Assembly: GCA_963693285.1 (NCBI GenBank)
Contig: OY848923.1
Coordinates: 6,838,920 to 6,902,919 of the forward strand
Reading direction: 5' to 3'
Origin: Xestospongia muta
Lineage: Eukaryota > Porifera > Demospongiae > Haplosclerida > Petrosiidae
Length of the DNA: 64,000 bases
The translations under genes and the position numbers were made by a program. How positions within the stretch are numbered: the first letter of the stretch is position 1; every line of letters starts with the position of its first letter. The notes beneath the pieces are model-generated. The model did no database searches. It was not told where the DNA came from and saw only the letters and a program-made list of their open reading frames with translations. Of the stretch, positions 14,915-58,950 are shown one piece after another.

Positions 14915-16885
14915 GTGCAGACTTCTACTGCATGCTTCGAATTGAATCAAAATCAATTATGTCAGATAGAATCCTCACAGTCAAATTCTGATATAAAGAG
15001 AGCATTAGGAATCCAGCTTGTTAACATTGAACCTGGTCTTAGTGATCACCAATTACACTCTCTCAAACTGGCTTGCTTCCTCCTGGATATACCAAGACAA
15101 CAACTAGAGAATGCTGACACATTTATTGACCTCTATCAATTGATAGAACACAAGATGCCTCAACATGCACCCTCACTGATCTATCAGATGCTTATTCTTG
15201 TTGGATTTCCTAAACCACTTTTAAGAGGTTTGCTACCATTTGTTAACATGGAGATTCATTTGGAACAAAATCAGATAATGGATTTAACTTTGACTCTATC
15301 ATTTATATTGGAGGAAATCTCAGAAAAGAACTATCGAAAATTTAAAGAATTTGCTCGATTAGCATTTCTTCCTGAGTATCATAAATCTCGAATCTTGACA
15401 CCCTCACATCTTTTAGAACTGTTACAAGATAAGAATGTTCTTACTCCACAGTATCCTATTTATATGTTTGCATGGCTTGAAGCAGCTGGTTGTCCTCTAC
15501 AAGTTGAATATCTTCGAGAATTTTGTGCTCATCAAAGTATTGCAGTGCCAAATTCGAGTGAAGTGTTATTACCAGAATTAGGTGGGTTTAATTTATGTGT
15601 AATGTGGTAGCATAATAATTACAGCATCTTTACCATAATTTTATCAGGTTACATTATGGAAGTTTTGGCTTGCTAACTAAGGTTGTTACTACTTGGCTTC
15701 TTAACCACTGTTTTCATAATAATATCTTCAGTCAATGACTATATGGCCAGAACAATACATGTTGGTTTATTAATATAGGTAATGATTTTGATGCTAATTA
15801 TGTTGAAATGGATGGTACCAGAATCAACAGATTTATCTTTGAAGTTATAAGAAAACATCAAAGATGTGAGTAAATTTGTGCAAATTTTATTTTACAAAAA
15901 TATATTTGTAAGTCTCTTCTGTACAGTAAAATGCACCATATGTTCTGTATTGTTAGTGATCATACCACTGCTTTTAACAATCCTCTCTATTAGTGGTTTT
16001 GCTGTTTTTTATAATGGTCTACAGCACATTTCTCTACATTCAGTTCATGATATTGGAGGAAATACGTCAATGAACATAGAACCCAACTGCTACAGCTCTT
16101 TTTGGACTAAAGAAGTTACCATTAGTAACATTAAAGGATACAAAGATGACCTAACAACAATAGTGACCTTTTACAAGACAAAAAAGAGTACACTACACAA
16201 GAGAGCCAAGCAACTAAATGCAAAAACATTTACTTACAATCCAAATTACGTAACTTATCGTACATCTATGAACTATTTCTTATGTGATATACCAATCTAT
16301 TCAGATGGTAATGGTACACTTAACTATACATTCCTTGCCAGAGCTGATGTTAATTTTACTATTTGTCCTCTTGAACTACATATATTTGATGACTATCAGA
16401 AGTATCATCAATTTCTATTACATCCTTATGATCATCATAATGGTCCTATTTCTAGTAAAAATTGTACTCTTGCTTCAGTGAATGGTACGTTTCAAAAGTA
16501 CATTACCAGTTTTCATCTCCGTCCAAATACCTTCTACTACTTTGCTGTTGCGTTTACAGGCACTTTGTATGTCAATATAACAATTACAGGAATATTAGAG
16601 GAATTCCAAGTCTCTGGTTTGACTCCAGAAAAATGTTTCATAAATTCTGACCCTCTTACTAGATCCTGCTCATTTTCAGTGGCTACTTCTACTGTCAGTT
16701 TAACACAAGATTATATCTGCCTTCTTGCTCATTCTAACAATATAAATCGAGGAAATGTTACAGTGGATGTCACTCTGGCCAAGTGGAATACTGGTAGTGT
16801 CATTTGTATTTTGTTCAGCATTGTAACTTGTTTTGTTATGATATGTATCATTTTCTCTTTAATCCTGTTTATAACGAGTTTATAA
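14915..16885 (+). CDS. Receptor D2: tandem DED, two-pass membrane protein, tail lost; 5-prime end unresolved
   Basis: Exons about 14,915-15,581, 15,779-15,865 and 15,927-16,885 match D1 in structure and phase. The DED exon is closely similar to D1 (I-E-P-G-L-S-D-H-Q-L-H-S-L-K, L-E-N-A-D-T-F-I-D-L). No in-frame ATG precedes it: the frame opens with GTG at 14,915. A TCCTCACAG acceptor ends at 14,980, so an upstream start exon is likely. Membrane segment 1 follows K-C-T-I-C-S; the ectodomain keeps C-P-L-E-L-H-I-F-D-D and the L-T-P-E-K-C motif. The protein stops (I-T-S-L) just after segment 2. The usual tail (K-K-E-S-A ... D-L-T-G-D) survives out of frame at about 16,895-16,941, so a small insertion removed it. 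An intact copy of this tail lies at 19.57-19.67 kb. Confidence 0.7.
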
Positions 16886-27360: not shown

Positions 27361-28940
27361 TTACATGTGTGCAGCACGCTGCATATAATTATTATTTTCT
27401 GCTATGTCATGAATATTATTTCTATACTTAAGCTTAAGGTAAATGCAAATAGCAAGGACAAAGAATACAAACAATAGTACAAGTGTAAAGGCAGATAAAG
27501 ATAATATACCCAAAACAGTCAATGGTAGAAAATTTGTTTTGTACACTACATACACTTGATCTTGTGGCCCAGGAACCGTTAACAGTTTTCTGCCTTGTGC
27601 TTGTGCCAAAAAACATGATGACATTGTATCCAAGCTATCATCACTGCTTGACATAGTGTTAAGAACACAACTCGAGCTCCCCTCAAGTCTGCATGCTGGA
27701 AACAACTTGCTAGCATTAAAAAATGTCCTCAGTTCATCTTTCGCAATAGTGAATGACGTTGCTAAGCCTTCCACTTTTTCAATCACAAAGAAGTAATATG
27801 AAGCTTCCTTCACCATATCAGCAGATGAAAAAACAAACTTCCAATTTTTCGATTTAACTTTCATTGCTTTTATAGTTTTGTAGTTATTCTGTCCTTTAAG
27901 AAAGTTTGTATAACTTATCACATCATCAAAAGCGAGCACACGAGTTATAACATTAGGAGGAGCTTGAGATAAAGTGATATTGTATGCGATGAAGGCAACA
28001 GTACTTTTAGTTGAATACCAGTACACATCCAATATGCATTTGTTGACATACAACGAACAAGAATTGAAGGACAATTCAATTGCTTGTTGTACTTTAGGAC
28101 GAGATGATTTTAGTGGTTTATCATATGAAATGTATAAAAGATACATCTCTTCACATGGAAACTGATATATATTAGTCGTCATATTAATAGCAAGGTCATC
28201 AGCAGTAGCATTTCGTTGAAAAAATATTACTTTATCATACAATAATCCACTAGAATTAGCTCTAAGATAGATAAAATCATTTCTCACTGCTAAATCTTCA
28301 CCTCGGTGTTTGATAGACATAATGATGTCAACTACTAATGGGACACATGAAATAATCAACAAAATTAAAGACACTACAAGAGTAGCATATAAACCCCTCT
28401 TACAATTCAAGACTTTTTGCTGATGAGGATTGTGATCTAAAAAACTCTTATGTTATTTAATTCAATCAATCAAAGTATACCTTCTCTTTGTTCTGAGCTT
28501 GATAATGAAGATATTGATAAATTAATTGATCCATCTTGATCAGAGGGCAAATCTCTCTGGTCATCAGCATTGGTTGCATTCTGGTCAGTTTGTTCTAACA
28601 ATGGAGTAGCCTCATTATCCACAACTTCATGATTGTTATCTGTATCATGCTCTGCTGCTAAAGACGATTCTTGTCCATTTGTTTGAAGGCTTGGTCTTTC
28701 ATTTGGTAGTGTAGGTGCAGGCTGAGAAAGCATTGATGTATTGTCTTCATGTTCTGATAGTTGACTTGCTGGTTCAACATCATCTGCAAATTATTTATTA
28801 ATGTAGTAACTCAATAATAATATACATACTTGGAGGAACGTTAAAAGGGCGGGTCTCCTGTATGGGAGTAACTCTTCCTAAAAAATAATCAGCTTTAATA
28901 GACTTTAGTTACCTCACTTACCTGTCACCCCGTTTGCCAT
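27361..28940 (-). CDS. Receptor E2: two-pass membrane protein with acidic Ser-rich cytosolic N-terminus, 4 exons
   Basis: Exons 28922-28940, 28830-28877, 28481-28783 and 27361-28436 are all phase-1 linked and give 481 residues from ATG M-A-N-G-V-T. The first coding exon is only 19 nt. Residues 1-130 are rich in Asp, Glu, Asn and Ser and contain N-E-A-T-P-L-L-E, an ExxxLL sorting signal. Membrane segments lie near 135-158 and 428-454. The ectodomain has C-S-L-Y-V-N-K-C-I-L-D-V-Y and F-D-D-V-I-S-Y, homologous to E1 and E3. The tail of about 27 residues ends Q-R-A-A-H-M. It is head-to-head with the DED/ZU5/DD/CARD gene F1, start codons 85 bp apart, suggesting shared control. Confidence 0.8.
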
Positions 28941-29025
28941 CGAAAGACAATTTAATTATGAGCCACACCTTTATTAATGGGCGTAACTAATGGTTATTAT
29001 TTTGCAACCAAATTGCTTTGTAATC
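28941..29025. promoter_or_regulatory. Compact bidirectional promoter of E2 and F1
   Basis: Only 85 bp separate the E2 start (minus) and the F1 start (plus, 29,026), or 49 bp if F1 starts at 28,990. It contains AGCCACACCT at 28,961-28,970, the exact reverse complement of the element upstream of E1 and E3. CCACACC is the core of CACC boxes bound by KLF/Sp-type factors in animals; binding here is inference. No TATA box was obvious. Confidence 0.55.
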
Positions 29026-32000
29026 ATGGCTGTTGAAGGTAGTAGCGAGTCTCGTCTAACTAACATGTCAATGAAATTGGTGTTCTTAAACAGCAGTTTA
29101 GATGATCGCCAACTCTCCACCTTAAAGTTAGCTTGTAAAGCTCTTAACGTATCTCGACAAGAGCTAGACAATGCTAACATGTTCACGGACGTTTATCGAC
29201 TCATCGAACAAAGTTGTCCACAAAAAGCTCTTTCGCTTGTACTACAAATTCTTGTAAGAATCGGTGTCTCGGAGGCTCTTTTACAAAGTCTAAAGAGTGA
29301 AGTTCAAGAAGAAACACGTCTTGAGGACAACTTACTAATGGATCTTATATTAACAGTGGCAAGTATCTTTAGAAACTTGTCTGACGAACAATTTCAATCT
29401 CTTAAAGAGATTGCTCGAAGAACCTACTTTATACAGCATCATACGACTAAAATCAAGTCACGTAATCACCTTTTGGAGATGATGCTAGACGATAGCAGAC
29501 TTACCCCTCAAGATTTTGGGTTCTTGTTCGCTTGGTTAGAAGTGATTGAGTGCTCTGCTCAGCATGTACTACTAAAACAATACTGCCAACGTCAGGGGAT
29601 TGTAGAGCCAGACTGGGGAGGGCTAGTACCACCATTAAAAGGTTAAACTCGTAACATATTAGCACTATGTTGAAATTTATATTTTCTCAATCACAGAACA
29701 ACTTGAAGGCAGGATTGTGATTCCAATTCAAACATCAAGTGATCCAACGACAACAGGAACAAGACCTCGTAGTTTAAGCAATACATCGGGTAGTTTGCCC
29801 ACATCTACTAACATGCCTCACACCTGTTCTCAGACTGGTACATCTAGCAGTTTTACTTCAACTGGTATTCCTTCAGGTATATATAACTAGCTAGTTAGAG
29901 AGGACTTGAAGCCAACCATAGTATGACATAGCATGATATGACCATGCTATGAACATGTGATTGTGATTTTAATTGGTGCTGTTAAAGCACTTTTTTATTG
30001 AAATCAATGTGTACTTTGTTCAATTAGCTATTGCTTGTTAGTTGTTTTAATTGCTTGTACTCTGACCTTGATCATCACATGTTTTACATGTGATGATAAA
30101 AATACAGTTGTCATATGACTTTTACACATGTTAATCACATGACTGCTTAATTTGTAATTTATAATACACTAACAACAGACTCTAAAACATTCAAGAGCTA
30201 TCAACTTCTTATTTTGCTTAATTTCAGTTAGTTTATTTGGCATGATAGCCAAAGTACTTATATCATACTCACATTACTTTTTGAAACATAGTTTAGCCTA
30301 CTTTTTGTTACCAATGTTATTATATTAAGTATTATACTCTTTGATTATACATAATACTACACTATAAGATATATTGTAATATTCAATATCATTATACATA
30401 CATTAGGTGGAAGTGCTAATACTCCCTCTCGAAGTAGACAAAGATTGTCTCAATCATCAAATCACCCTCTGCACCAAGTACATCACTTTAATGCAGAGAG
30501 GAGTCCAGAAGGTACATCCATTTATTGTTTAATCTATAATATAATATTTTTGACCCATACTGTGTCAATTGTCTTAGTGGGATTCAAAAAACCCACAAGA
30601 AGACTGCCAAGCCTTATTGCTTTACCATCTAAGTTGACACTCAAGAAAGCTTAATTCAGGATAGACATATATATAGTTGATGTATCTCAGAAGTTAAGAT
30701 CCTTTATATAATGAATATCCTCCTCATATACTACAACTTGATAAATGAGAGTGCAAAAGAAAGATTAAATATTGTATGTTTTCTAAATTAAGAACTATTC
30801 AGTTTGACATTCTGATAAAATGGTTCAAATATACAATAATTATCACAATTTTGTTGATTTTTAGGTGACCCTCTAATCACTATAGTGACTGATGCTGTAC
30901 CTTCAACAGAAGAAGGTAATAATAAGTTTATAATAATATCTTTGTTGATGTTTTGTTTAATTTCATACTTTGTATTATTTATTGTATAGATGAAACTGGC
31001 ACAGTAGTTGTTGCTAAAAAAGTGTCTACAATCCCTAACATAGTCACATCCTCTCAAGCAAGAGGTACAACATTTCTCATAATCTAATAGTCTCTAATCT
31101 TTACTAATTGTAGGTAATGGGACTACAGGCCCACCATCTGGTACTCAGTTTCCTATGGAAGAAGGGGAAGTAGAAAGGGATGCTCCTTATTATGATGACA
31201 ATGAACGTGAGAGATTATTGCCTTTACCTGACAAAAGGCCTGTAGTACCATACTATGGACAACCTCGTGTTTCTGGAATGATAAACTCTATTTATGAGGA
31301 CGAGAACTTAACAGTTCACTCAAATCCTCATTTACAAACTCCCAGAAGACGCAGAAGTAAGTAGACAGGCTTTCTTGAAATAGTTACTAAAGTAGTTTCT
31401 TCATGACTTTCCTACATGCATTGCTGTATAGTATACTCTAAATCAGTTACAAACAATGGAACTACCAATTTGGAAATCCACAAGCCTAACAAAGCCCTCA
31501 TGTATGTACATATTATCTAACCTCTACTATTAGACTCTTGATCATATACATAACAAAATATACAAAGAACATCTATAAACAATAGTGAAGTTTCTGCACC
31601 ATATCCTGTAGCTACTTAACAATGTAAATGAAATGTTAATTTCTATTTCATTATATTGTTAAAATTTAATCTTGGTTTGTTTTTACACATCGTCATACAG
31701 CACGTCAATATTCACCATTGTCAGAAAGACAACGTAAAAATGTTCCTTACATCAAATGTAAGTTTATTATATGGACAGATGCTATATATAATGTGATTAC
31801 CTATAACTACATATAATTACGTATTATAAAATATCAAATAATGCTTTATAGTTTATTAGCTATGTCTATTAAGATAACATCTATAATAAATTTGCGTTCA
31901 TATAAACGTATGAAATACATTTATACATATTTCAGGTTGCGTGGCTATATTAATATTAATGTTAATATTGATGCTAATTGAGATGGCTCTTCTTTTAACA

Positions 32001-35000
32001 TCTTTCATTCTCCACTTTTACCACCAACTCACTGCACATGGGCGCATAGCGAGGGTACTGTAGTCTGTCAGTGCGTGTGTGTGTGTTTGGTACTGCACAA
32101 ATGGCTTTGAACTGCTTTAACTTGGCCAACATGACTGGTAGCAACTAAACTATAGTGGACGATAGCAAAACTTCTGCACTTCTTAAGAATACTGCTAAAA
32201 GGAGTGTCAAATAAACAAAAAACTTTAAAAGTCTGAAAAACTTTTGAAAAAAAGCACAGCTTTCAGTGAAGACTCGAGAATTCAATTAAAACCTCCTGCA
32301 TACAGCTTATGACATTTTCCAACTTTTTAAAGAGAGAATTTTTACAAAAATACTTCTTTGGAAAGTTATGACAGTTTTATTAACTTTTGGCAGTTATCTT
32401 TGTCAATACATTGAATGTGAACGAAAAATACTAGCACCATAGCTGTCATTGGAGAATCACTAACTTTTGGAAAGTATTGGACCTTTTGTTAATTAGAGTG
32501 CAAAGTACCCAGTAAAACAGCAATGCTTTTTTCCCTTTGATTGAAGAGAAATGCTGAGTCATCAATAATCATCTTGCGCATCACATGAGATATCTCTTGT
32601 CTGTATTCTGTGGTAGTGCTTTATTGTCAATTACTTTGCAAATTGGCCAGTAAGTTGACTATTGTCAGAGTAAAGCTGAGCCATTAATGATTTACCATAC
32701 CTTTGAGCTTGTAGAATGTTAAATGTACATGCACTCTACAATATAGATCAACACTACGCACCACAGCGAGGTTAAGCACTTTAGTGCATTTTTCATTAGC
32801 CATGTTAAATTGTATCTATAATGGTATGATATCTATAATAAATTTGTGTTCATATAACTTATGAAGTTACATTTATGTATATTTCAGGTTGTGCTATGAC
32901 ATTAATATTAACATCATTGTTGCTAATTGGAATAGCTCTTGGTACGACTACCATTCTCCACTTTTCCCACCAACCTCAGTCTACTGGTGATTTAGTGATG
33001 CTTACAAAGAGTATATACAATCGACCAATGCTAGTTACCTCAAGCAGTTTTACATCAGCTACATCTATTAATTTTACATTACTAAATCCTGGCACAAAAT
33101 CAGCTGCTCTTTACCAAACACCATGCAACAACTTAACTCTTTTAACAAACAGATCATTACCACCTCATCGTATTACACAACTAACTCCAGATTCATTTAT
33201 TCGTGAAGAATACAACTATGATGTTGGTACAGATGTACCTATTAATCTAGCACCAGGTTCAAGTCTCACTTATGTTATGAATGCTACTTCTTCCTTATCT
33301 GATCCAGGATGCTTTAGTCTTTATCTCTTTGACTCTTATAGTGCCTATGACTCGTTCCTAGGTTCTAATAACAATACTGTTAATAACTATGTTGCTCGAT
33401 CAGATTGTGTAAATGTCAGTACTTCAGGACTACCAGCTCAAACAGTAATAGTTTTTAATATCACTGATAAACAGGCTAATTATTATGTTGGTGTTGAGAC
33501 TCCTGGTCACATTACCTTTGATGCTAATGTATCAGTTGTACAAACATATTATGATACAAGTGAGTTAAAATTGCAGTGCTCTCATCGCCTTTCTTCCAGC
33601 ATACCTTCCTGTGTGATTAACCGATGTGATCACAGTATTCTTAACAATATTTTCTGTTTTGACATCAAGAAAGATGGCACCTGTTTTCTTATTGATTCTA
33701 CAAGTACAGTTGATGTGACCTACCAAACTGAGATGGCCTTTTTTAATGGCTATTCTTCATACACATTCTTTGCTGCATTTGCTCTTGCTCTGTTGCTGTT
33801 GCTAGCAGTTCCAAGTAGCTGTTTATTAATAAGATATCGCTATTGGTTGTGTAGGAGGGTTAAAAAAGGTACTGGCCACATTGAAATTTGTGAGAGTAAC
33901 ATTGATGATAGACGTGGCATATCAAGAGTTAGAGCAAAAAGATTGCAATATGAAGCAAAATTTGAAACAACTTATAGTGAAGGTAAGACTTAACATTATT
34001 AGTCTGAAATTTTGAAAAACTGGTAACTGGTTATAGAGCATCCAACTAGCTCTGTTCAATGTGATGTAGAAGGAATACTGCCAATATCACCAGTAACTTC
34101 AAATCAAGGTAAGACTTATATTAATCACCCTCTCTGTGTATTATATGCACTTAAATGGAAATTATGTTAAGTTCATGTCAGTGTAGGTCACACAGGAACT
34201 ATTTTCACTCGTAACTTATACCAGCTATAGAATGTATGCAATGATTGCTTTTTGACTGAATAATGTAACATTACACTGTTATTATTTATGTGTTACATAT
34301 TATCAGACATGACCATATATGGGAGTTTAAGTTATTAGTATAATTAAATATACTATGAATATAATATATAGTTATTTGCAAATAGTGATATCTTATCACA
34401 TATAATTGTATGCGCCTTCCTCCTTTAAGAGGCTAGTGGCTCCTGTTTATTTGCTACAATAAAGACTAATATATACTATATGTTTACTATCTACTAATAT
34501 ATATACTGCATGTTTTATACTAAGTTTTGTCAAACCATTTTAGAACATTTAGGAGTAACAATATATATTTCACGTAGAAACAATAACCAATATATTTGGT
34601 TACTCTAGTCTAATTCTTTATATTGTTATTGAATGCATATTTCATTATGAATGTATCAAGAATGTATTGCATAAAAAATTATATTGTTCGATTATACATG
34701 CACAGATAATGATCAATTTATGTATACCTATATATATATATACAGATCGGTTCTTAAGCAGAGATAGTATATTATTACAATCTGAAAGTTTACCCTCAGG
34801 TAATTACATATATATGTCAAAGGATTTTATGAGCTACTCATAATATACAGATAATGAAGGTCATGCATTGCCTAAAAGCATTTTACCTCAAGGTATATAA
34901 CGCAGCAATAGTATATTCAAGTTCTATTCAGTTATAGGCAGAGGTGTAGATAATTCATTTCCTTCAACCAGTCCATCTTTAGGTAATACTTATAACAGCT

Positions 35001-38000
35001 ACATAGTTTGTATTTTGACCTCCCATCCATTATTTTTAAAATATGCATATTTAGTTATATTAGAACCTTATGAGGACGATGATGTGTACCCTCTTCTTCC
35101 AACAGGTATATGCATTATTGTATTTAGTTTATAATAAAATGAACTTAATTTGCAGCTATATTTGAAAACTTGACTAAGTTAGAAGTCACTGCTACTGGTT
35201 TAGTACATCATTGCAGTCAATATGGTGTTACTCTAATCATTCCAGAAGGAGCTGTAAAATATTCAGCTACTGTCTGGTTCAGTGTATGCTTAATAAGCAG
35301 CAAATTCAGATTTGCAGATGATTCTATCCCTGTCTCTCCTATTGTGTGGACACACATCAACTGTCAGTTAATGAAATCAGCAGAATTATATATACCTCAT
35401 CACATTGATGCATGCAGTATGAAGGCACCTAATAAAAAACTATTTCCTCTGACAGCAGATGATGAATCTTTTGAAAGAGAGAAAGTCTTTGTTTTTAAAA
35501 GAAACAACAAATGCCTAATGACCATTGAATCTACATTGGTGAAAATAGTCACTTCTCATTTTTGTTGTAACTGCATTGCTACCAAAGGCCACATGTACAG
35601 TGAGATACCGAAGAGATATATAATAGCTGTAGCTCAAAAATGGGAATATAATGATCTTCTATATGAAGATATATGTTTTTTATATCAACAGCCTGGTTGC
35701 ATCAAGGTTAGCTCTATATGTAGATTACTCTAAATTAATGATATCTGTAAATATAGACATTAAAAGAACAATGTCAGATAAGAGGTTACACTCTGTCTCC
35801 CTATAAACGTGTGACTTTCACAGAAAGTGGCCGTGTTAATCTCTTTCTTGATCCTGAAACTATATCTGGTTGGAATTGGTCACATTATGGCTTCAATTGT
35901 GATTATGTAAGTGTAAGTAATGTTTACTGATCATGATAGAGAAATTGCTGCTGAAGTAATCGTTGTGCTCTCAAATGACTTTTAAATTCCCATTATACAA
36001 GCTTTATAAGCAATTTAGGCCATTATTAGAGTCATAACTGAACATGACTTCACATGGCATTAATTTTGTTAAATTTTTGATAATATAATACTAATAGAGA
36101 TCTTCTGTAAACCTGTTGGTTATACTGTTGGTTTGAATAGAGTATTTGTCCATGTACAAACCACTTCAATGGAATAAAGATTAATCAACATAATGAAAAA
36201 ACTACAATAAATATATAAATGTAGTGATGTTAATGCCAAAAACCACAGAAAGTAATAGAGGTACTAGTACTTATTATGGAAATAATAATATAGTGTAATC
36301 TGTAAGATTTTTTGTAAAGCCATATCCTTTAATTTATATAAAATGATATCTATCATAATTATTATATTAAAACAGATATCAGAGGAAGATATTGACTACT
36401 TCAAGATAATGAATTGTGAAGGTGGAAACGTAACACCTGATAATGAAGAGACCCTTCATCTATTGGAAGAAGGTCTTACCTATCCTCCTCGTTTCCAGCT
36501 GCAATTTAAAAGTGAACCAGATGGCTATGTCAGCACTCAAAATGTGAAAGTTAAATTTAATGGTATTGATCCCCCAACTACATTTTCTATCATTCTTCAA
36601 AAATCAGGTATATATAAACTTATTAATTGTATCAAACTACATCAAATCAACAGGCAGTAGTGGGTTGTCCTTGACTCCTCCTCCTTCATTCAAATCATCC
36701 CCCAACCAATTAGTGACCAATGGTACTAGTAGTGATCTTTCAATAGGTATGAACTTGTGAATCAAAAAATAATATACAAAACATTTCTCAGACACAGATC
36801 CTTTCTTTGGAGAGATACTTTATATCATAACAAGTAAAGATCATTTGAAGGAAAAGTGGTGGTACATTGGATTTGAACTTGGTCTAACTGTGAATGAACT
36901 TAGTGCTATTCAGATAATCTCCCATGACTCTCTCCAATGTATTAGGGAAGTACTAAAGAAGTGGAGAGTTAGCACATCTAGAGGATCATGGAAACCCTTA
37001 ATGGATGCCCTACATAAGCTAAAATTCGCTGAGATTGCAGATCGTATTAAGTACCATTTGGTACGCTTGACTTCTTCACAGGAAGGTATTTACTATAATC
37101 TTAGCAAAGAGTAGCTTGGAATACAAATTCAAGACTTGAGTATCTCTGCATCTTCTTATTTTATATTAATTCTTATACTAAGCATAGATATCAAGCAAGA
37201 ATCTCAATTAAAAATGTGTTATAAATTTAACATTTACAAAATTTTGTTGAAAAATAAAAATTAGTGATGGTGGGAATATGGATATGTGATAAGTGTTACT
37301 ATATAAATAGATCATTCTTTATCTCTTTGTTCATCGTTATAGGTCAACCACAAAATACAAGTGAGGAAATATCTCAGAATCTACAACCATGTCTAGGTAA
37401 ACATTGGCACAATACACTGTGTGGTATCTGCACTATAATATAGATCCTTATTTAAGCAATGACAGTATGGAAGCACCACACAGTCATTTTATCAGTATAT
37501 TGCTATTTGCCATACTAGAGTTTCAATCTTTGCATGATTCTAAGTACAAAACAGAAATATCTTGTTTCACCATTAGATTTGTTCCAGGGCTACATTCATA
37601 TATTGAGTAAGGCAATTGGATCAGAAGCCAACTTTTATAGAGTCATTGATATGTTGTTTGCTAAAAATTTGATTACTGAATCTGAATATCTTGATGTTAC
37701 CACAACACCTAGGTCAATGTACGAAAAAGGCAGTAAAGTTGTACATGAACTGCATGGACTAATACGATCCAGTGAAAAACCTAAACAGACATTACTTGAG
37801 ATTTGTGATGTACTACAAGATTCTGATGATGAGACAATAAAAAAATCTGCCAAAAAAATTAGGTATCAACTGAATCAAGACCTACCTGAACAACCTTTAG
37901 TTAAAGATGAGTTGGAATCACATCAGTCCATTGGTAAGCATAACAATCCATTTTATTAATACAATCGAATAATAATTTAGACCAAGTTTGGGCTGACCCT

Positions 38001-38742
38001 ACTAACCTTTGTGGTGCTAGCGATCATCACCTCTGTAATGCTACCAGTCTGAATGCAGATAAATCTATCACATCACAAACTCAAAATGGTGTGGCAGGCA
38101 TTAAAGGTTATATTATCAATTCTAAATATATAGAAGGGAATGGTTACAAAGTTGTATGAACTGATATTTGTACCACTATCTCTACATATCATAATTTTAT
38201 CGGAACATATCTGAAATATGTTTTCCCAGCCATGCTAATTCAAGGCAAGGCACTCTTTCATCTGACAGTACTTTTATGGAAATTGTTTTTGCTTTGATTC
38301 AAAATCCTTTAACACTATTAATAATTTATATCATCTCAGCTATTCTCATAATTACCTCCACATTTTATTATCTCAACCAAGTATTTCTAATCTTGTAGAT
38401 TTTACACTTTTTGGCCCACCATGTTCACATTCAGGTAATTCTTAACCAACACATATGCATATACAATATTTCAAACCTGTTTTATAGATAAAGACAATTT
38501 ATTATCAAATAATATCAATTAAGTCTTCTTTCTCAAGTATTTCTTGTCATATGATATGTTCATATATATACATGTTTATTGTAAAATAAGACAAACTTTA
38601 TTAGTACAAAAATGCATCATGCAGGAAGCTGTTTTCCTTAGCAATCAATATATTCATATTTTTGGGGTTTTACATTTTCATACTTATAAGATGAACCTCA
38701 ATGTAATGTCTTTCTTATTCATTTATAGGTGACAATTTATAA
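29026..38742 (+). CDS. Receptor F1: tandem DED, two membrane segments, ectodomain, ZU5, UPA-like, death domain, CARD-like; 23 exons
   Basis: Exons: 29026-29641, 29697-29876, 30407-30511, 30865-30915, 30990-31064, 31114-31356, 31701-31757, 32888-33982, 34037-34108, 34746-34799, 34851-34892, 34938-34982, 35055-35105, 35156-35706, 35757-35906, 36376-36607, 36654-36746, 36792-37085, 37343-37396, 37577-37933, 37981-38106, 38399-38434, 38729-38742; 1530 residues, frame kept throughout. Residues 10-205 are two DED-like domains (L-D-D-R-Q-L-S-T-L-K-L-A-C; H-L-L-E-M-M). A Ser/Thr linker holds E-R-E-R-L-L. Membrane segments lie near 444-468 and 737-760. ZU5 is at about 905-1050 (Y-G-V-T-L-I-I-P-E-G-A-V; S-P-I-V), then a UPA-like stretch to 1206. 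The death domain is at 1237-1335 (F-E-L-G-L-T-V-N-E-L; L-K-K-W) and the CARD-like domain at 1353-1460. Known families (UNC5, PIDD) place ZU5-UPA before a DD. DED plus ZU5/DD/CARD on two cytosolic faces of one membrane protein is unusual. The last exons (38.4-38.7 kb) are least certain. Confidence 0.75.
31936..32063 (+). other. Alternative terminal membrane exon of F1
   Basis: A TTTCAG acceptor precedes a 128-nt stretch in the right phase to follow exon 7. It encodes C-V-A-I-L-I-L-M-L-I-L-M-L-I-E-M-A-L-L-L and stops at TAG after A-R-V-L. It is a duplicate of the start of exon 8 (32,888), and about 80 bp of flanking intron is duplicated too. Use of this exon would give tandem DED on a single membrane anchor without ectodomain, ZU5, DD or CARD. 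It may instead be an unused relic. Confidence 0.5.
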
Positions 38743-39069: not shown

Positions 39070-39350
39070 AAGAGAAGTCTTGAAGAGTTGAAGAGGATAG
39101 GTCTTTCATTGGGTGTTGCAGGTGAAGGTTGAGAAATCATTAACGTATTGTCTTCATGTTCTAACTCTAATGGTTTACTTGCTGGTTCAACATCATCTGC
39201 AAATTAATTATGAATATAATAAGTCAATTATATACATATATACTTGGACAGTAAGGGAGCGCAGATGGGTCTCCTATATGGAATAATGCTTCCTAAAAAT
39301 AATCAGTTTAATATGTAACTTAGAGTTTATTACCTATAAATTCATTTGTC
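39070..39350 (-). pseudogene. Relic of an E2-type N-terminal exon
   Basis: On the minus strand, 39,100-39,198 resembles the E2 region at 28,680-28,785 (matching ATTGTCTTCATGTTCT and GCTGGTTCAACATCATCTGC in plus-strand terms). The downstream block near 39,243-39,295 resembles E2 exon 2. No membrane or ectodomain exon follows, so this is a broken copy of the front of E2. Confidence 0.5.
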
Positions 39351-44946: not shown

Positions 44947-47411
44947 ATGACTTCTGAACAAGATTACCTCCATCGCATGACATTTGGTTCGCAATTAGTG
45001 TTCTTAAACAACAGTCTTGATGATTATCAACTGTCCACCTTTAAACTAGCTTGTTCGTCTCTAAATATTTCCCGACAAGAGCTAGATAATGCGAAGTTGT
45101 TTACTGATATTTATCAACTTGTCGAACAAAGATTTGAACGCCCACAAGATGCTCTTTCGCTGGTGGTACAAATCCTAGAGAGAATTGGTGTGTCTGAAGG
45201 TCTTCTGCAAAACCTAAAACGTAACGTTGAACAAGAAGTTTGTCTTGAAAATAATTTGCTGATGGACCTAATTCTAACAGTGGCAGCTATCTTTAAAAAT
45301 CTACCGAATGACAAGTTTGATTCTCTCAAAGAGATTGCTCGAAGAACCTACTTTATACAATATAATTCTGCTAATATCAAGTCACGTAACCACCTTCTCC
45401 AGATGATGTTGGATGATAACAAGCTTACTCCCACAAATTTTGGGTTTCTCTATGCTTGGTTGGAAGTAGTTGAGTGCTCTGCTCAACACGAACTACTGAG
45501 ACAATACTGCAAGCGTCAGGGTATTGTAGAGCCAGACTGGGAAGGGTTAGTACCACCACTAAAAGGTTAGACCAAAATCACATTGACATACATAAGCTTC
45601 ACACTTCCTAGACCAACTAGATGGGAGAATTGTGATTCCAACTCAGACATCAAGTGAACCCACAGCCCAATCTCATACTTGTACAGAAGCTGGTACATCT
45701 GGAAGTTTACCCACATCAACAAACACGCCTCGTACTTGTTCTGAGATAGGTACATCTGGCAGTTTTACTTCAAGTGGTAATCCTTCAGTACTATAATGTA
45801 GCTAAATCTACGAAAGATAAAGCTGATGTAATACTTAATGGCATGGGCATGCTATGGTCATGTGTTCTTGATTGGGATTAATATGTTTACTTTACTACTC
45901 ACTCAATTAGTTGCTTGTACTCTGACATTGATCATCACCTGTTATACATGTGTAATTGTCACCTGACTATTACATGTGGTAGTCCCATGACTGCTTAATT
46001 TGCAATTTATAATACACTAGCACACGCTATGACATTTATACTTTTCAACCTGTAATATTTATTTCATGTGTATATAAGACAAAACCATCTATTATACTCA
46101 AATGACTTTTTGGAAGACAGCAAGCTTGTCTCATGTATTAATCAACAATATTACCATCCATTATATTAAGCAAAGTTATATAATGCTACTAATATAATAA
46201 TATATAGTTATATAATGCTAATGGATTCATTGTAATATTTTGTGTTGTTATGCATACATTAGGTGGTGCTAATACTCCTTCTCAAAGAAGACAAAGATTG
46301 TCTCATTCATTAAATCACCCTCTGCACCAAGTACATCATTTTAATGCAGAGAGGAGTCCAGAAGGTACATTGATTTTATTGTTCAGAGTTTTGTTGTATT
46401 CACATTTTGACCTATACAACGTAAGTATAGTGTTTGGGAAAAGAAATTGGCTTAGTGGGATTCAAAGCCCACAAGAAGACTACCAAGTCCCATTATCTAA
46501 ACTGACACTCATTGTAACACAAGAAGGTTATATGATTCATGATAGGCATATATAGAGTTGATGCATCTCAGAACTTAAGTCCTTTATTAAATGTTGTATG
46601 TTTTCTAAATTAAGAAATATTTTGTCTAATGTTCTGATAAAATGGTTCAAATATACAATAATTATCACAATTTTTGTTGATTTTTAGGTGACCTTCCAAT
46701 CACTGGAATGACTAATGCTATACCTTCAACAGAAGAAGGTAATAATAAGTTTATAATAATATCTTTGTTGATGTTTTGTTTAATATTATACTTTGTATTA
46801 TTTATTGTATAGATGAAACTGGCACAGTAGTTGTTGCTAAAAAAGTGTCTACAATCCCTAACATGGTCACATCCTCTCAAGCAAGAGGTACAACATTTCT
46901 CATAATCTAATAGTCTCTAATCTTTACTAATTGTAGGTAATGGGACTACAGACCCACCATCTGGTACTCAGTTTCCTATGGAGGAAGGGGAAGTAGAAAG
47001 GGATGCTCCTCATTATGATGACAACGAACGTGAGAGATTATTGCCTTCACCTGACAAAAGGCCTACAGTACCATACTATGGACAACCCCACGTGTCTGGA
47101 ACGATAAACTCCACTTATGAGGACGAGAACTTAACAGTTCACTCAAATCCTTACTTACAAACTCCCCAAAGACGTGCAAGTAAGTAGACAAGCTTTCTTA
47201 TAATAGTTACTAAAATAGTTTCTTCATGACTTTCCAACATACATTGCTATAGAATACTCTAAATCAGTTACAACCATTAGGAACTATCCAATTTGGAAAT
47301 CCATAAGCCTAGTAAAGCCCTTGTGTATGCCAACTTGGGCTTCAGTGACAGCTCTTGGATTTCTAAATCATGTAGTTTTCTAAATCTCAGAAATTCAGGA
47401 ACCCATAGTCT

Positions 47412-47458
<47 letters not shown>

Positions 47459-48533
47459 AGCTGATGCTACTATGTAAACCTGCCAACTTGTGATGTTTAC
47501 AAGAACTGCTGAGAGTGCAGGCTAACTTTAAATACTTGTTAGGACAATAGGGGACATTTACTAATAAATTTTATTTTCTTTAGAGTTTATTGTGAACTGG
47601 AGGTATGCCACATGTATTATATGTCTAATGATTTTTTTCGTTACATTTGGCACTCCATCATTTTATCTTCTACATTCCTACAATACTCCAAAGAAAGCCT
47701 GCACTATTGAATACATTGGTGCATATACTTCAGTGATCATCAACAACTGTTTTGATCCATTCTCTATTAAAAGTGTCAATGTTAGCAAAGGGTCGAACAC
47801 ACAATACGACAGTTCAATTTATTTGGTTCAGCATGAGAAGATTCATTACTCACAAGAAAGCTTGAGAAATCGATCATGGAATTACGAAGAATCATCAGAT
47901 ATAAGAATTGGAGCTAATTATTATGACGGCGATGATCCCATCTACACAGCAGGTCCTGGCATTTTATCCTATACTGTAGATGCAATTGCAGATACAACCA
48001 TCAAACAATGTCCAATGCAGCTATATTTGTATAATGATTATACAGCTTTTCGTGGTTTTCGTGGTGAAGGTATTGGTCCAGTTTTTAGCAATATAAGTTC
48101 TTCAGGTTGTCTTTCAGTAAGTGAAACACTTCAGCAACACTTTGTCTACTTCCATCTTTATGACTCTGGTTTTTATTTTGTCGGGTTAGCTGTAAGAGGT
48201 GGAGTGTCTGTTAACATTACCATGTCAGCTCAAGTTACGATATTTAATGTTTCCAAACTAACCCCAGAGAGGTGTGGCTTGAACTCGCAACACGATTCTT
48301 GTTTCTTTGAAATCGCCAAGTCCAAAGTACCGTCATCTCATGATTCTACGTGTCTACTAATGTCCTCGACCAACAGTCAATACCAAAATATCACACTTTG
48401 TGAAGAATACGTTAGTTGGAATGTTGTTCATGTACCAATTGTTAGTGGCTTAGGATGTTTTACTGTTGCTGTGTTTTTTGTCTTAGTCCTTGTTATTTCT
48501 TATGTGATATGTGTATATTATAGAAGAAGGTAA
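44947..48533 (+). CDS. Receptor F2: tandem DED, two-pass membrane protein, 7 exons
   Basis: Exons 44947-45565, 45612-45776, 46263-46364, 46688-46738, 46813-46887, 46937-47179 and 47584-48533 splice in phase to 734 residues. Start ATG 44,947 (M-T-S-E-Q-D) is the nearest before the DEDs; the frame is open further upstream but only from TTG, with one earlier ATG. Residues 10-206 are two DED-like domains closest to F1 (F-L-N-N-S-L-D-D-Y-Q-L-S; I-V-E-P-D-W). Exons 2-6 match F1 exons 2-6 in length, including E-R-E-R-L-L. Then F2 departs: it lacks F1 exon 7, and its ectodomain (Q-C-P-M-Q-L-Y-L-Y-N-D; L-T-P-E-R-C-G-L-N) is closer to D1. Membrane segments lie near 424-448 and 703-730. The protein ends Y-Y-R-R-R, with no ZU5, DD or CARD, and a different gene follows at once. 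Confidence 0.8.
47414..47456. repeat. (GT)n microsatellite in F2 intron 6
   Basis: About 21 GT dinucleotides, absent at the corresponding position of F1. Confidence 0.95.
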
Positions 48534-52049: not shown

Positions 52050-53230
52050 AAAAGACAATGGCCTTCAAGTGTATGTATGAATTTTGTATTTGTATTATAT
52101 TTGTATTTTGTATTTGTATTATTATTTCTATCTTTTTCATTTAGTCCTTATATTCAATCAATCTATAAAAGCTGTAAGGGTCGTAATCGTATCAAAACTG
52201 ATGACAATACTAGTGATTCAGTTGCAACAATTGACATAGTTAGCTCATTACATTTGTAAATTGCAGAAGATGAGCATAATGAGCGTACGCTGTCAGTCAT
52301 CATCAAGCCCTTTACGAGAACCATCTCAATACATAAATAATTCATCACATGCACACAGGATTGAACAAGATGATAATAATTCATTAACTGTTAGTGAAGT
52401 TGGTAACAGACAGAAATTAAGTAAATATTTACACAACAAAATACTGCTATTCTTTTATTATATTACATATTAACAGAAAAAAAGATTTTCCCAAGATATG
52501 TTGTCACATTTCTAATGATCATGATGAATATTATTTATTTTGATATTTATCATTCTTAGTGGCACAAAATTGATGATAAAGTCAGTTTTACCAACAATCT
52601 ACTAATTCTATGGAAATTGAAATGTTAATTTGCCTGTTTCAGCTTTAATAAGCTTGTCACATAATGAATATTCATATCAATACCACACTTAACTGAATCA
52701 GCTGTTGCTTATGTATGTCCTGTTAAACCTCCTGAGTGGATAGATTATTTATCATAATTTACAGTACCTAAACATTTGAACACTCTCACTATAATTACAA
52801 CTATTATGGTTCTAATCAGCCTATTTATTTGCTTTCTAACTCAAAATTGTTAAATGATCTTATCATATCAGCTGATATATATATATATATATATATATAT
52901 ACTGTTTCTACACATTATAGATTGATACTAGAGTCACTGTTTCTAGACCTGATCAATAGTTCATATGTACTATAACACAACTGGAATGTGTACCACTAAC
53001 AAGTGAACCTCTGTAATCAGATAATCCATCATGTACATTGACTATGTGTAGTAGTAATTTGATCTGCAACAAACCAATATCTTATAGTAAAAAATACTAA
53101 TAATGTCAAGGTGACATATACTTCTGTAAGTTCTAATATTCTTCAACAAAATGGTGTCCTTGGCTTCTCTTTTTTTCTACTAATGTTTTTGTGGCTCTTT
53201 TAGATTTTGTCTTTATACTATAGATCAGTA
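52050..53230 (+). pseudogene. Decayed receptor copy P1
   Basis: An ATG at about 52,059 (M-A-F-K) precedes a donor. A later open stretch (52,270-52,425) encodes a Ser-rich cytosolic-type segment ending before GTAAAT; then comes a region resembling membrane segment 1 and the early ectodomain, with many stops. The same order with fewer lesions occurs in P2 at 55.7 kb. I read it as a dead member of the receptor family. Confidence 0.5.
52875..52901. repeat. (TA)n microsatellite
   Basis: About 13 TA dinucleotides within P1. Confidence 0.9.
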
Positions 53231-53934
53231 ATAGCTTCTCTCTTGTGTTAATTTAGATATAAATGCCACAATAAATATTAAAAACTATTGAAAGATTTAT
53301 ACCCTAATTATTATAACTTTGTTAAAAATGTAGCGAAACTTGTATTGATTTATTTTATAGTTTATAATAGAGAAGAGTGAATAGTGTGAATATTTATGTT
53401 TGGTTAATAGATTCATAGTCTACACTTGACCTCTATGAGTATTCACAGAAATACACTAGGGAGATTTTGAAATTTGTATTGTTGGGCTATTATAATAATA
53501 TCATTATATACACCTCCACATACCACTAATATTACGTACATTAAATATGTAGTCACAATTTCCCCTTATCACAGCAGTTTCATCAGAACTGATAGTCTCA
53601 GTCAGCACTTAATCTTGGGTACATAACTTTTACTAACAATTACTATCACTATGAGATGGCTATATATATGATATAGACATCATATGGATTGTGACATTTG
53701 CAGCTGAATGGACATGCTTTGACTGAAAGATAACTTCACTAGTCAAGTTTTATGTTAATACAAATATACTCTAATTACTGTCCTTCTGTTTTGGAAAGTT
53801 CAATATATAACATTTATTAACACTTGCACACACTCATTTCAAACTTTATTTATTAGGTATTACAGTTATATAAAATTATGAAAAAGGTACTCCAACACAA
53901 TTGCATAAAGATTAAACTTGTAATTGTGTGATCA

Positions 53935-54719
53935 TTAACGAGGAAAGGGTGGATCTTTTGAAGATGGAATGATAACTGGAGCAGGTCCAGTATACTGAGA
54001 AATTTTACAATCTGCTGAAAAAGATATGCTACAGTGATGAAATTATTTCAGTCATTTCTCTCAAAATACTCAATATACATACTTGAATTGTTTGAACATT
54101 CCTTCAAAACTGGAACGAACTGCACGGATAATTGCATTGAGATCATCAACTCCAGGATTGCATTCGTGTACGTTCAAATCCAATTTAATAATAGGTTTTT
54201 GGGAAGAATCTTGCTCAAAATCTTTTTTAATTGTCAAATTGAAGTAATAACCTGGCTACAATATACATACACAAATATTACAATATTAATGTGACATCAT
54301 ATTTGTTCCCTTACTTGTTCCCTTAGCAATTTTTGGGTTAGATCTGAAAGCAAAGTGTCCAAAGGTGATGGTGTAACATCTGGGTAAGAGATGATCACAT
54401 CTACAGGCCCTGAATGGATCTGCCCAGAGCATTTAATAAGCATAGATAATTTCACTTGGGAAATTTGAACTTCCCAATTGTGGAAATGTATTTTCTCAAT
54501 CTCAACAATGACTTCCTCTTTAGATTTTAGTACACAGACTCCTTTTTCAGTGTCACTTGCAGGTTTAAACCATATTTTTGTAAGATCTTCCTTTCTTATA
54601 TATACTAGCTTTACTTGCTAAATACTCCTTAACTTTTCAACATTTTTTATTTTCTTTCCAATGCTAGAAATGAAAATTGCCCTTCCTTTCTTCACTGGTT
54701 CAGTTCCCCCGCTTGCCAT
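53935..54719 (-). pseudogene. Frameshifted copy of the 59-kb single-module S gene (Q1)
   Basis: Three exon equivalents (about 54,317-54,719, 54,085-54,255 and 53,935-54,015) match the intact gene at 58,957-59,743. Near 54,635 one A is missing compared with that gene, shifting the frame into a stop in exon 1. The rest (I-W-F-K-P-A, V-D-V-I-I-S-Y, V-D-D-L-N-A-I-I-R-A-V-R-S-S-F) remains readable. Initiation downstream or a sequence error are alternatives. Confidence 0.65.
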
Positions 54720-55660
54720 AATTCATTAACAAAATCTTCATATATGCAACTCTTTCTAAAAAGAGCCTATAATAGATTACAGTGACCACTGACATCTGAA
54801 ATATTTCAGAATTCAGTAAGACAAATGTGTAGTATTGTAAACTTAATATGTCCTTACTCTTTATGACAATAAAGAGGCAGGAATCACTAATATGTCCTCA
54901 GAGATCATAATAAGAGCTGTTTTTAATACATGTATAACTTGAATAACTATCATTTTGAAGGCTTATATTGTGGATGTAATATTTTAGATATATAAGATCA
55001 TGCAGTTAAATACTTTCAGCTGTTATTAGACTATTTTATGAGAAAAAATATTTACTTTCAAAAAGTACAGAAAATAGGCACTGTGACATAATTCTTCACT
55101 TTTATGTAAATATAAACAGTGACCATTTATTAAATATCTGTTAAGTTTTAACAAAAAAAATTAAAAACATAATGTTTCATGCAAAACAATCACTAGCTTT
55201 TACTCTTAAAACAATATTTTTGGCCTAATAATCATAAACTTGTTGCTACATATGGTAATTGTTTCTACAGTGATATACAGATGCATATATATATGTCATA
55301 ACTAAATTAATCTTGCATCTTCAGTAAATCTATAATTATAAGTAATTTTCAAATTTCATATTAATAAATAATAAATTAAATCTTCCATTGATTTCAAGTG
55401 AATTGTAAACCATTACACAAACCATATAACATCATTCATGATTTAATTAAATATACAAAGGAAATTCAATAGTTCATTGCTAGACTATTTTATGTTTATT
55501 CATAACAGATCTAGACTACACAGCATTTATTATTATGATCTTTAACACATTATCACATGTTTCAGCTGAGGTGTAGTATGCCATACTAGATATATTTTAT
55601 AAGTCTAAGGATAAAAATAAAATTTAAAATGCAACCATATAAATCTACATATATTATACA
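54720..55660. repeat. Duplicated AT-rich flank (copy at about 59,840-60,600)
   Basis: Shared runs include ATAAAGAGGCAGGAATCACTA and TTTCAGCTGTTATTAGACTA. It shows that the 52.0-55.65 kb unit was duplicated as a whole, including non-coding DNA. No gene. Confidence 0.6.
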
Positions 55661-55689
55661 TAGCCCCTCCCACTAAAGGACGCAACACT

Positions 55690-56960
55690 ATGGCCTTCAA
55701 GGTGTGTGTATGAAATATATATTTGCATTGCAATATTCTCTGTTTTCATGTTGACCTTATATTCAGTTGACCTACAGAAGCTGTAAAAGATCCTACTTGT
55801 ATCAAAACTGATGACAGTACTACTAGTGATTCAGGTACAACAATTAAGATTATATTTGTATATTGTACAAGATGAGCATACACATTGTTAATTGCTAATA
55901 GCTGGCAGTCATCATCAAGCCTTTTACAAAGATCATCTTCATATTTAAATAGTTCATGACATGCACACAGGAATGAAGAGGATCACAGTAATTCTTTAAC
56001 TGTTAGTGAACTTGGTAACAGACAGAAGTCAAGTATTTACACTACAAATGCTACAAATATTGTAATTCATTTATTATATTACATACTAGCAGAAAAAAGA
56101 TTCTCTCAAAATGTTTCATCACATTTGTAATGATACCAATTATTTTGATATTTGTTATTGTTGTTGACACAATGTTAATGATAAAGTCAGTTTCACCTTT
56201 ACAAGAATCTACTAATTCTATAGATATTGGAGATGATAATTTGCCTGTTTTAGTTTTCATACCAATGTCACATTATGTATATTCACTCACAATAATGCTA
56301 TCAAATACAGACAATGAATTAACAGTGTCTATCTATGTCCAGTGAAACCTACCGAGAGGACAGATTATTTATCAAAAGTTACTTTACCTAAACTTTCTAG
56401 ATGTTCTCATTATAATTACAACTATTATGGTGCTGATCAGCCTATTTACTTGCTTTAAAACTCAAGGTTGTTATATGATTTTATCATATTAGCTGATGCT
56501 GTTTCTACATGTTGCACTCTACCTATTAAATAATAGTACTAACAACACAACTTCAAATTTTCAAATCACCGCAGACATATATACCATCTTGTTTTAACAT
56601 CAATAAATTAAACACTGACTATAATGATATGGCCATTTAATATCACTGAATCTTCTCTTTAATATATTGCTATAGAGATTGATGCTAGAGTCACTGTTAC
56701 TAGCAATATATCAGTACTTTGTATGTACTATAACACAGCTGGATTGTATATCCCTAATGAGTGTAGTGAACTGTCATCATGCAGATAATCCATCATGTAC
56801 ATTGACTGTGTGTAGTAGTAATTTGATCTGCAACAAACCAATTTCATGACTTGGTGGAACCAACCTATATTGTTAAGATGATGTATGGTGTCCTTAGCTT
56901 CCCACTTTTGTTTTTATAGCTCTTAGAATTTGTGACCCTGGTCTTTTCATCTTTATATTA
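55690..56960 (+). pseudogene. Decayed receptor copy P2
   Basis: M-A-F-K at 55,691 is followed by a donor. A stretch near 56,105-56,345 encodes a membrane segment (I-P-I-I-L-I-F-V-I-V-V) and the start of an ectodomain. A frame change then leads to Y-N-Y-N-Y-Y-G-A-D-Q-P-I-Y, matching the receptor pattern Y-x-Y-G-D-x-P-x-Y/I seen in G and F1. Further on, around 56,690-56,780, come V-T-V-T-S-N-I-S and C-x-E-x-S. Several stops and frameshifts separate these pieces. Confidence 0.55.
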
Positions 56961-57154
56961 CAGTAATAGTTTCTCAATTGTGTTTTTATACATATGAAAC
57001 CAAGGAAGCCACAAGACACAAAAACTATCAATAGATAATTTACGTTCTTAATGTTAACTTTTCAGAAAGGAAGTGAAATTTGTAATGATTAATTATTATA
57101 ATTTTATAAAAGAAATTATGGAATATATCATTTTCAAAGATATATGATCCATAT

Positions 57155-57379
57155 ATATAATCAACACCTAACCTTATATCAATATTCATAGTAATACACC
57201 TATAATCAACACCTGACCTTATATCAATATTCATAGTAATACACCTATAATCAACACCTGACCTTATATCAATATTCATAGTAATACACCTATAATCAAC
57301 ACCTGACCTTATATCAATATTCATAGTAATACACCTATAATCAACACCTGACCTTATATCAATATTCATAGTAATACAC
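57155..57379. repeat. 45-bp minisatellite, 5 copies
   Basis: The unit contains CACCTATAATCAACACCTGA and CTTATATCAATATTCATAGT. Because 45 is divisible by three it creates an artificial repeated open frame. The corresponding place in the older unit (about 53,405-53,455) has one copy only, so expansion followed the duplication. Confidence 0.9.
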
Positions 57380-57719
57380 TAGGGACATTTTGAAACTTGC
57401 ATTGTATATAATATTATGTGTATATAATATTGTTAAAATATTATATACACATTTCCTCATACCACTAATATTTGATATATTTAAATGTGTACATATGGTC
57501 GGTCACAATTTCCACTTATTACAGCAGTTTCATCAGAACTGATAGTCTTTCTCAGTACTTACTCTTGGGTACATGACTTTTTAGCCAAAAATCTATCACT
57601 ACAAGATGGCTATTACAATATATGTCATATACATTTTGCTGATCTGAATCCATCAATAACTTTTAATTTAAAATGTATGGTTTGTTTTATCCTATATCCA
57701 TTGCCAATTATATGAAATA

Positions 57720-58950
57720 AAATTATCATAATATTGTTGTTTTTATCTGGTAAATAATAACACACACTATTAGATCAATATGTCACTATTGTGTGTGTAA
57801 AATTATACATTATACATATAAAAGTTATATAATCTCTGTTCATAGTTTCAGAGTGTTGGTATGATATATTTATTCTTTATTATGGACTTCAATTATACAT
57901 ATAGATGATAGTCATTGAACATTAAACCATGGAAATAATTTGGAAATTTAACAGACCAACAGTGCACTTCAAAGTTGCCTTATCTGTGTGTCTATGAATT
58001 GACAAAAATATTACGCTACTGCATGATGTAATGACTTTGTACAACATCAATGAATCTACATATGCATAGTAAATGTTCATATTAATTCTGTTTTAAAGTT
58101 ATGCATTAACCATATGCTTATTTAGATCAACATGTTGTCACATATTTGGACAAAAATGTACTGAAAGTTTAGTTGTTGATCTTATTTTTTCTGCTACGAC
58201 TAAGAAGAGCTGTTACTACAAAATAGGGCTTTTATCCTGCTTAAATCATTTTATTAAACAACCTCTGAATACGTTCTATATTCTAATTCTTGTCAATTGT
58301 TCATTTATTACAACATACACATAATAAATTATCTTGTTTTATGTCACACATATTATGCATATAATTATATATGATGTCATGAGTTCAATCATCTTTCTCA
58401 ATTCTATGATGAAATTGTTGTTTACTAAATAACCTTATGTAATTTTATCTTGTTGATCACCTCAAAACAAAGGTAAATCTTGTCCAAATCTTAACACTTA
58501 TATCCTTAGATAAAATGATGAGTGTATAAATGAAAGTAGCAATTATTGCTACATATCTCTCAGGTAATTTTATAAGAGTGCACTTTGAACTTTTTACTTA
58601 AATCAATATAAAATGACGTTCATAGATTACACCTGCTTCAATAATTGTAACTAGCATTGCTGGACAGTTAAAACAAAATCATGAATTAATTAATCTGTGT
58701 AATCTATGACAGCACATTTTCACACCAACATTTCCATCTGAATGATAAAGTTTTGACTGAAATACAACCTCACTAGTCAAGTTTTACATTAATAGAAAAA
58801 ATAGTATATTTTCTGTTCTTCTGTTTTTGCATAAAATTCTGTATACAACATTTGTATAGCATTATGCAGACATTTTAAAGGTTTATGTAGATATTACATT
58901 ATAAAAAGGGGAAATGTAACACAATTGTGTAATGATTAAATATATAATTG
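57720..58950. other. Gene-free AT-rich interval
   Basis: No exon series, family motif or transposon end was recognised. The right part matches about 53,690-53,930 in the older unit. Confidence 0.5.

Follow-up and report, generated by a model that had tools for sequence, protein, structure and literature searches.

Can a single membrane receptor carry three types of death fold on its two cytosolic ends? The question is raised by a gene at 29026-38742 on the plus strand of the window, the 64-kb stretch of DNA analyzed here (C7:6838920-6902919; coordinates without a contig refer to the window), within the 158-Mb, 28-contig genome of the sponge Xestospongia muta. DED pairs are known from caspase-8 and c-FLIP, and units of ZU5, UPA, and a death domain (DD) from UNC5, ankyrins, and PIDD. 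On balance, we favor the explanation that one chimeric gene encodes a two-pass receptor with an N-terminal tandem DED of the caspase-8/c-FLIP type and a C-terminal ZU5-UPA-like-DD-CARD-like part from an UNC5-like family.

Gene Model and Domain Composition

The exons were rebuilt by hand from the window sequence. The resulting model joins 23 exons into 1532 residues plus a stop codon, with no internal stop. All 22 introns have a GT donor and an AG acceptor; 20 are in phase 1, and two, after exons 14 and 15, are in phase 0. Thus, the protein of about 1530 residues proposed in the initial annotation stands with its open frame, and the phase called consistent there is nearly so. When a codon score is trained on genes elsewhere in the window, 21 of the 23 exons score positive, while exon 10 and the final exon score negative. 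Ranked against 43 intron decoys, exons 9, 11, 12, and 13 reach the 91st, 98th, 98th, and 100th percentiles and exon 10 the 67th, in a comparison that favors exons, the decoys being drawn from the same introns as the codon-score background. Exon 10 and the last exon, which has only four codons, are poorly supported as coding.

Exon 1 (29026-29641) contains the start codon and, in residues 1-205, two DED folds in tandem, identified by profiles and by the predicted fold. In hhalign, the receptor tandem DED compares with that of the tandem-DED caspases of the same genome at 90.6% over 153 columns, versus 4.7% and 0.3% for the DD and CARD controls. A profile search of the PDB with the DED alignment gave no relevant match at a useful E-value. 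As for a caspase or pseudo-caspase C-terminus, none of the 106 genome matches to Peptidase_C14 lies on C7, and none was found in the scanned pieces.

Exons 2-7 (29697-31757; residues 206-442) are short phase-1 exons encoding a cytosolic linker with a basic juxtamembrane end. Exon 8 (32888-33982; residues 443-807) encodes the first transmembrane segment (TM1), the ectodomain, the second segment (TM2), and a basic juxtamembrane tail. The protein has two hydrophobic segments, at residues 438-468 and 730-760, and the ectodomain holds 8 of the 21 N-glycosylation sequons (2.99 per 100 residues versus 1.07 elsewhere). Given these segments and the sequon density, the sequence fits a protein that crosses the membrane twice and keeps both ends in the cytosol. 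No Pfam domain, including TNFR, matched the ectodomain exon above cut-off. The ectodomain profile matches exon 8 at 3.1e-93, but exon 8 is a seed of that profile; window copies seeded the ectodomain profile and the domains of the gene seeded the others, and their own E-values are not independent.

After five short phase-1 linker exons lacking Met (exons 9-13, 34037-35105; residues 808-895), where the model is weakest, exon 14 (35156-35706) encodes the ZU5 domain. Pfam ZU5 matches all 15 copies tested, at best with 9e-5; the copy of the chimeric gene alone gives 0.012-0.085, below cut-off. A PDB profile search with the ZU5 alignment gave no relevant match at a useful E-value (ZO-1 at E 0.43), and a single profile spanning ZU5-UPA-DD matched mostly death domains, its ZU5 part aligning only with ZO-1 (E 1.9). 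Exons 15-16 (35757-36607) encode a stretch in the place of UPA. A conserved stretch follows ZU5 at 27 of the 29 other ZU5 loci; it has no Pfam or PDB match to UPA, and the name is given by position only.

Exon 18 (36792-37085) encodes the death domain, with a Pfam Death match of 24.3 bits against a cut-off of 22.6 and PDB profile matches to the THO complex, FADD, PIDD, and ankyrin. Exon 20 (37577-37933) is predicted to form a six-helix death fold nearest to CARDs: CARD-bearing entries take ranks 1-6, and PYD and FADD chains follow within 1 Z, so that the subtype is not certain. Pfam CARD matched none of seven copies of this exon, and none of the 15 CARD matches in the genome lies at this gene. 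The DED and CARD-like domains are divergent, because neither is among the matches of whole-genome Pfam DED and CARD searches. A C-terminal tail with an uncertain last exon (exons 21-23, 37981-38742) completes the protein.

The architecture named in the initial annotation is partly borne out: the two N-terminal death-effector-like domains by profiles, predicted folds, and likeness to the tandem-DED caspases; the ectodomain between two membrane segments by hydropathy and sequon density; ZU5 by Pfam over 15 copies; the death domain, followed by a further domain, by Pfam and PDB matches; and that further domain as a predicted CARD-like death fold of uncertain subtype. The UPA-like name is not confirmed.

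Two Receptor Families in One Genome

The DED exon has 14 genome matches, 12 of full length and two pieces that we take as one broken copy. At 11 of the 12 full-length places, a TM-ectodomain-TM exon, in some cases truncated where the locus ends, follows on the same strand, and all 11 lie inside one 140-kb cluster (C7:6.744-6.884 Mb); the twelfth is on C3. In six of seven paralogs inspected by eye, the tandem-DED donor and the TM acceptor are both in phase 1 and less than 1 kb apart. On these grounds, the tandem-DED two-pass receptors form a genuine family, with 11 members or more, rather than a one-off. In the region C7:6736501-6902919 (the window and loci L003-L008, L066, and L067), they are interleaved, on both strands, with two-pass receptors that lack DEDs.

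The ZU5 exon has 44 genome matches, 31 of them nearly full length, including two with a stop codon. The ZU5-UPA-DD module is a second, widely shuffled family. Additional upstream DNA was read at 10 ZU5 loci. Pfam identified FN3 exons upstream of ZU5 at L011 and L026. They were among five loci where Ig or FN3 exons had been assigned by eye; at the other three (L010, L012, and L024), upstream parts that look receptor-like received no Pfam support. Further death domains lie upstream at L029 (below cut-off) and L035, and L038 has a long upstream open reading frame (ORF) with a P-loop noted by eye; L016 gave an ambiguous picture. At L023 (C7:7075306), a two-pass part lies upstream of ZU5, giving the order TM-ectodomain-TM-linker-ZU5-UPA-DD.

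A search scoring the best candidates found no ZU5 in the DED cluster other than that of the chimeric gene, which thus appears as the only gene found to join the two families. The CARD-like exon family occupies 106 places genome-wide, a wide expansion that Pfam CARD did not see in the seven copies tested. Because 14 DED, 44 ZU5, and 106 CARD-like matches share the genome, the predicted combination of domains is more than chance.

The claim that three death-fold types reside on one two-pass protein finds support in profiles and predicted folds, with UPA placed by position and a single gene that we infer. Its tandem-DED two-pass part, however, comes from a family of at least 11, and its ZU5-UPA-DD part from a second family.

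Signs of Exon Shuffling at the Locus

The interval 29075-31506 aligns to the neighboring tandem-DED gene (44947-48533, plus strand) at 44993-47329, with 70% identity that rises to 92% in the final 0.74 kb (30764-31506). The match ends at 31506, inside intron 6, and exons 1-6 are common to both genes. The neighbor has the same linker exons, a different ectodomain, and a stop directly after TM2; it was not among the tblastn matches of the chimeric ectodomain, for which the closest long copy is found at C7:7001280 (59% identical). The CARD exon lies inside a 459-bp block with an 89.5% identical copy at C7:6983311-6983768 (L060), which has an in-frame TGA and stands beside a Pfam-supported ZU5 gene. 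This copy appears isolated and recent, as if exon shuffling were caught early. An exon beside it, taken by eye for a death domain, had no match in Pfam.

Since exons 1-6 match the neighbor, the ectodomain another locus, and the CARD exon a recent copy, and since the introns are in phase 1, the gene bears the marks of assembly by phase-1 exon shuffling between two receptor families. Pairwise omega values, calculated without a significance test, are 0.20 for the tandem DED versus the neighbor, 0.42 for ZU5 versus L023, and 0.64 for the ectodomain versus C7:7001280; the value for CARD is invalid, a stop codon having shifted the codon pairing, and was not used. The pattern is as expected of a receptor whose outside evolves faster than its inside.

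One Transcript or Several

We consider it quite probable that both halves of the gene make one transcript, because the phase is unbroken, the joint between the halves scores as coding apart from exon 10, Met is absent from the model from residue 808 to mid-ZU5, and L023 offers a parallel. At L023, one 392-codon ORF spans the end of the ectodomain, TM2, and the linker, and the last 66 residues of this linker are 67% identical to the L011 linker directly before ZU5; therefore, L023 probably joins a two-pass part and ZU5 in one gene.

Several observations weigh against a single chimeric receptor. An in-frame start that would permit a split exists both at TM1, as Met446, and 37 nt upstream of exon 10, as an ATG. 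ZU5 is absent from the remaining tandem-DED two-pass genes, and the fusion is known from a single example. Although L023 shares with the chimeric gene the order from TM1 to DD, it has no DED within 6.6 kb upstream and shows an apparent frame change in the ectodomain in this assembly. The paralog at 15005-16885 (plus strand), a possibly degenerate tandem-DED two-pass gene whose frame ends at TM2, has a changed TM acceptor to which phase 1 no longer fits (one of the seven paralogs inspected). The DED matches of the chimeric gene are below the Pfam cut-off, and the RxDL motif, present once in each of the two tandem-DED caspases of the genome (in DED2), occurs in none of nine receptor DED copies. 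At the sequence level, neither Pfam nor the PDB links the CARD-like exon to death folds, and Foldseek gave nothing at E < 0.001 for either model. Finally, of 7349 word-sharing candidates in a whole-protein homology search, none reached E 1e-3, in a collection possibly poor in animal proteins. An NCBIfam search gave nothing.

Alternative splicing or polyadenylation might yield two products from one gene: a short tandem-DED two-pass form, the default of the family, and a long, rarer one carrying ZU5-UPA-DD-CARD; this possibility deserves some, though limited, credence. With 20 of 22 introns in phase 1, modules could be skipped in frame, and read-through of the exon 8 donor leads to a stop within a few codons. 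A third, membrane-anchored tandem-DED form could arise from a duplicated TM1 exon at 31879-32028 (plus strand), which repeats in part the intron end and exon 8 start (78% over 154 columns to 32831-32974). However, this duplicate may be simply decayed; whether it is a relic or an alternative TM exon, the frame closes shortly after the membrane segment.

Rather improbable is a pair of adjacent genes, a tandem-DED product ending after exon 6 (or a short-tailed two-pass product ending after exon 8) and a downstream ZU5-UPA-DD-CARD protein. Such a split would agree with the 10 other tandem-DED two-pass receptors of the cluster without a ZU5 match, the end of homology to the neighbor in intron 6, the poorly coding exon 10, the alternative start codons, and the ZU5 modules at L029 and L035, which stand behind death-domain exons with no visible membrane segment. 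It is at odds with the stretch lacking Met, with the decoy percentiles of exons 9 and 11-13 (favored as these are), and with the same joint in one ORF at L023; moreover, a direct splice from exon 8 to exon 14 would also be in phase. No weight was given to adenylation signals or promoters as evidence of a split, such motifs being common in a window with 68% A+T.

Neighboring Genes

A minus-strand two-pass receptor gene without DED (27361-28940; identified by its ORF and by the ectodomain profile at 4.3e-97, itself a profile seed) seems, by eye, to stand head to head with the plus-strand tandem-DED gene, its possible ATG lying about 85 bp from the plus-strand ATG (28938-29026); a shared promoter is possible. 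Just beyond the 3' end of the chimeric gene, 39094-39313 is a 78% copy of part of the 5' end of this minus-strand gene (28687-28900); thus, direct repeats flank the chimeric gene. A further paralog at 7731-9961 (plus strand) is a tandem-DED two-pass receptor with a short tail. Besides the chimeric gene, the window has four plus-strand two-pass genes; all have short tails, and one lacks DEDs. The window also contains a long duplication at 52134-60595, with blocks 75-85% identical and another gene within it, and, at 57156-57379, a tandem repeat that is almost perfect.

Possible Mechanism

At two loci on C6, near 585 and 570 kb, two DEDs are followed by a caspase domain within about 1.7 kb on the same strand, and on C8 a CARD lies 1 kb before a caspase domain. 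As judged from these arrangements, the genome encodes tandem-DED caspases and likely a CARD caspase. Beside one tandem-DED caspase gene, one ORF of 475 codons (L068, C6:580964-582247) has four DED matches in Pfam. With caspases of the tandem-DED type and a CARD lying near a caspase domain in the genome, it is plausible that receptor clustering would nucleate several death-fold assemblies, though the receptor DEDs have no RxDL motif.

Self-cleavage could contribute. The ZU5 exon contains an H-F-C motif (35557-35565). Among 28 ZU5 copies compared (two further loci of the 30 have stops and were set aside), F-C is found in all, as H-F-C in 26 and as D-F-C in two. A weak FIIND match is seen in four of 15 ZU5 copies, not including that of the chimeric gene, and because it ends 17-30 residues before the motif, H-F-C seems by extrapolation to sit near the HF/S or SF/S cleavage position of PIDD and CARD8. 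Autoproteolysis of this type can be initiated by Ser, Thr, or Cys, as PMC3210808 states, and Cys1032, the Cys of H-F-C, is a possible nucleophile; equally well, HFCxNC could have a structural or metal role.

Ligand binding by the fast-evolving ectodomain would cluster the receptors. The tandem DEDs would then seed DED polymerization and recruit the tandem-DED caspases of the genome directly, with no FADD-like adaptor. ZU5-UPA would keep DD-CARD closed until clustering or HF/C self-cleavage, and the freed DD-CARD would recruit DD and CARD partners. The output might be cell death or inflammation-like signaling on contact with microbes or non-kin cells. That exon shuffling in an early-branching animal coupled two death-fold polymerization systems in this way, FADD-free filament seeding by the tandem DED and release of DD-CARD by a Cys nucleophile, is a speculative proposal in which we place low confidence.

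A different role, as a brake, is doubtful: like c-FLIP and viral FLIPs, the tandem DED might cap caspase-8-like DED filaments at the membrane rather than initiate them. A C-terminal DD-CARD platform would be odd for a pure inhibitor, and fold similarity does not separate an activator from an inhibitor. It is unlikely that the domains are scaffolds for non-death signaling, such as adhesion or kin recognition, even though the ectodomain family is clustered and fast evolving and the ZU5-UPA-DD units of ankyrin and UNC5 have roles in adhesion and guidance. Against this, DEDs are known mainly from regulating caspase-8 and its partners, as stated in PMC4558505.

If the tandem DED is indeed borne by the receptor family itself, an adaptor-free route from membrane to caspase would follow, and it could show the first wiring of the pathway of the death-inducing signaling complex (DISC). 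In vertebrate death receptors, the DD recruits FADD, and the DED of FADD recruits caspase-8. For the basal DISC of the sponge Amphimedon (receptor, FADD, and CASP8), the adaptor is reported to be supersaturable, and the receptor and effector are not (PMC13012725). Should transcripts confirm the chimeric gene, a single receptor would be able to launch two sorts of death assembly with no adaptor. The cluster would show exon shuffling creating new death-fold receptors, which bears on the diversification of innate and allorecognition receptors in sessile animals.

Comparison with Known Systems

Among the top-ranked open-access full-text matches, judged by titles and the starts of abstracts, none described a tandem DED on a membrane receptor or the full combination. 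As far as the accessible parts of the sources go, no DED protein in PMC4558505 is a membrane receptor, ZU5 is reported only with NACHT (PMC12909245, PMC8260672), and Amphimedon has 357 TRADD-N proteins, most types with one to three death-like domains (PMC8195603). Because of this last repertoire, odd death-fold combinations would be expected in sponges in general.

In caspase-8, caspase-10, c-FLIP, and viral FLIPs, the tandem DED is joined to a caspase or pseudo-caspase, whereas here it is joined to a membrane receptor, matches below the Pfam cut-off, and lacks RxDL. Like Fas and TNFR1, the predicted product is a membrane protein with a cytosolic DD; unlike them, it would itself bear the DED effector platform, with no FADD, and it has no Pfam TNFR match. 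As in PIDD, NLRP1, and CARD8, ZU5 is followed by a DD or CARD, and HF-C would stand near their HF/S or SF/S; in contrast to them, this is a membrane receptor with Cys in place of Ser, and cleavage is putative.

The UNC5 netrin receptors, too, are membrane proteins whose cytosolic part carries, in this order, ZU5, a stretch of UPA size, and a death domain. The single pass and the Ig and thrombospondin ectodomain of UNC5 are not matched by the chimeric gene, which has two TM segments, an unrelated ectodomain with no Pfam match above cut-off, an added CARD-like domain, and a tandem DED at the other end. The sister ZU5 genes with FN3 exons, L011 and L026, look more UNC5-like than the chimeric gene.
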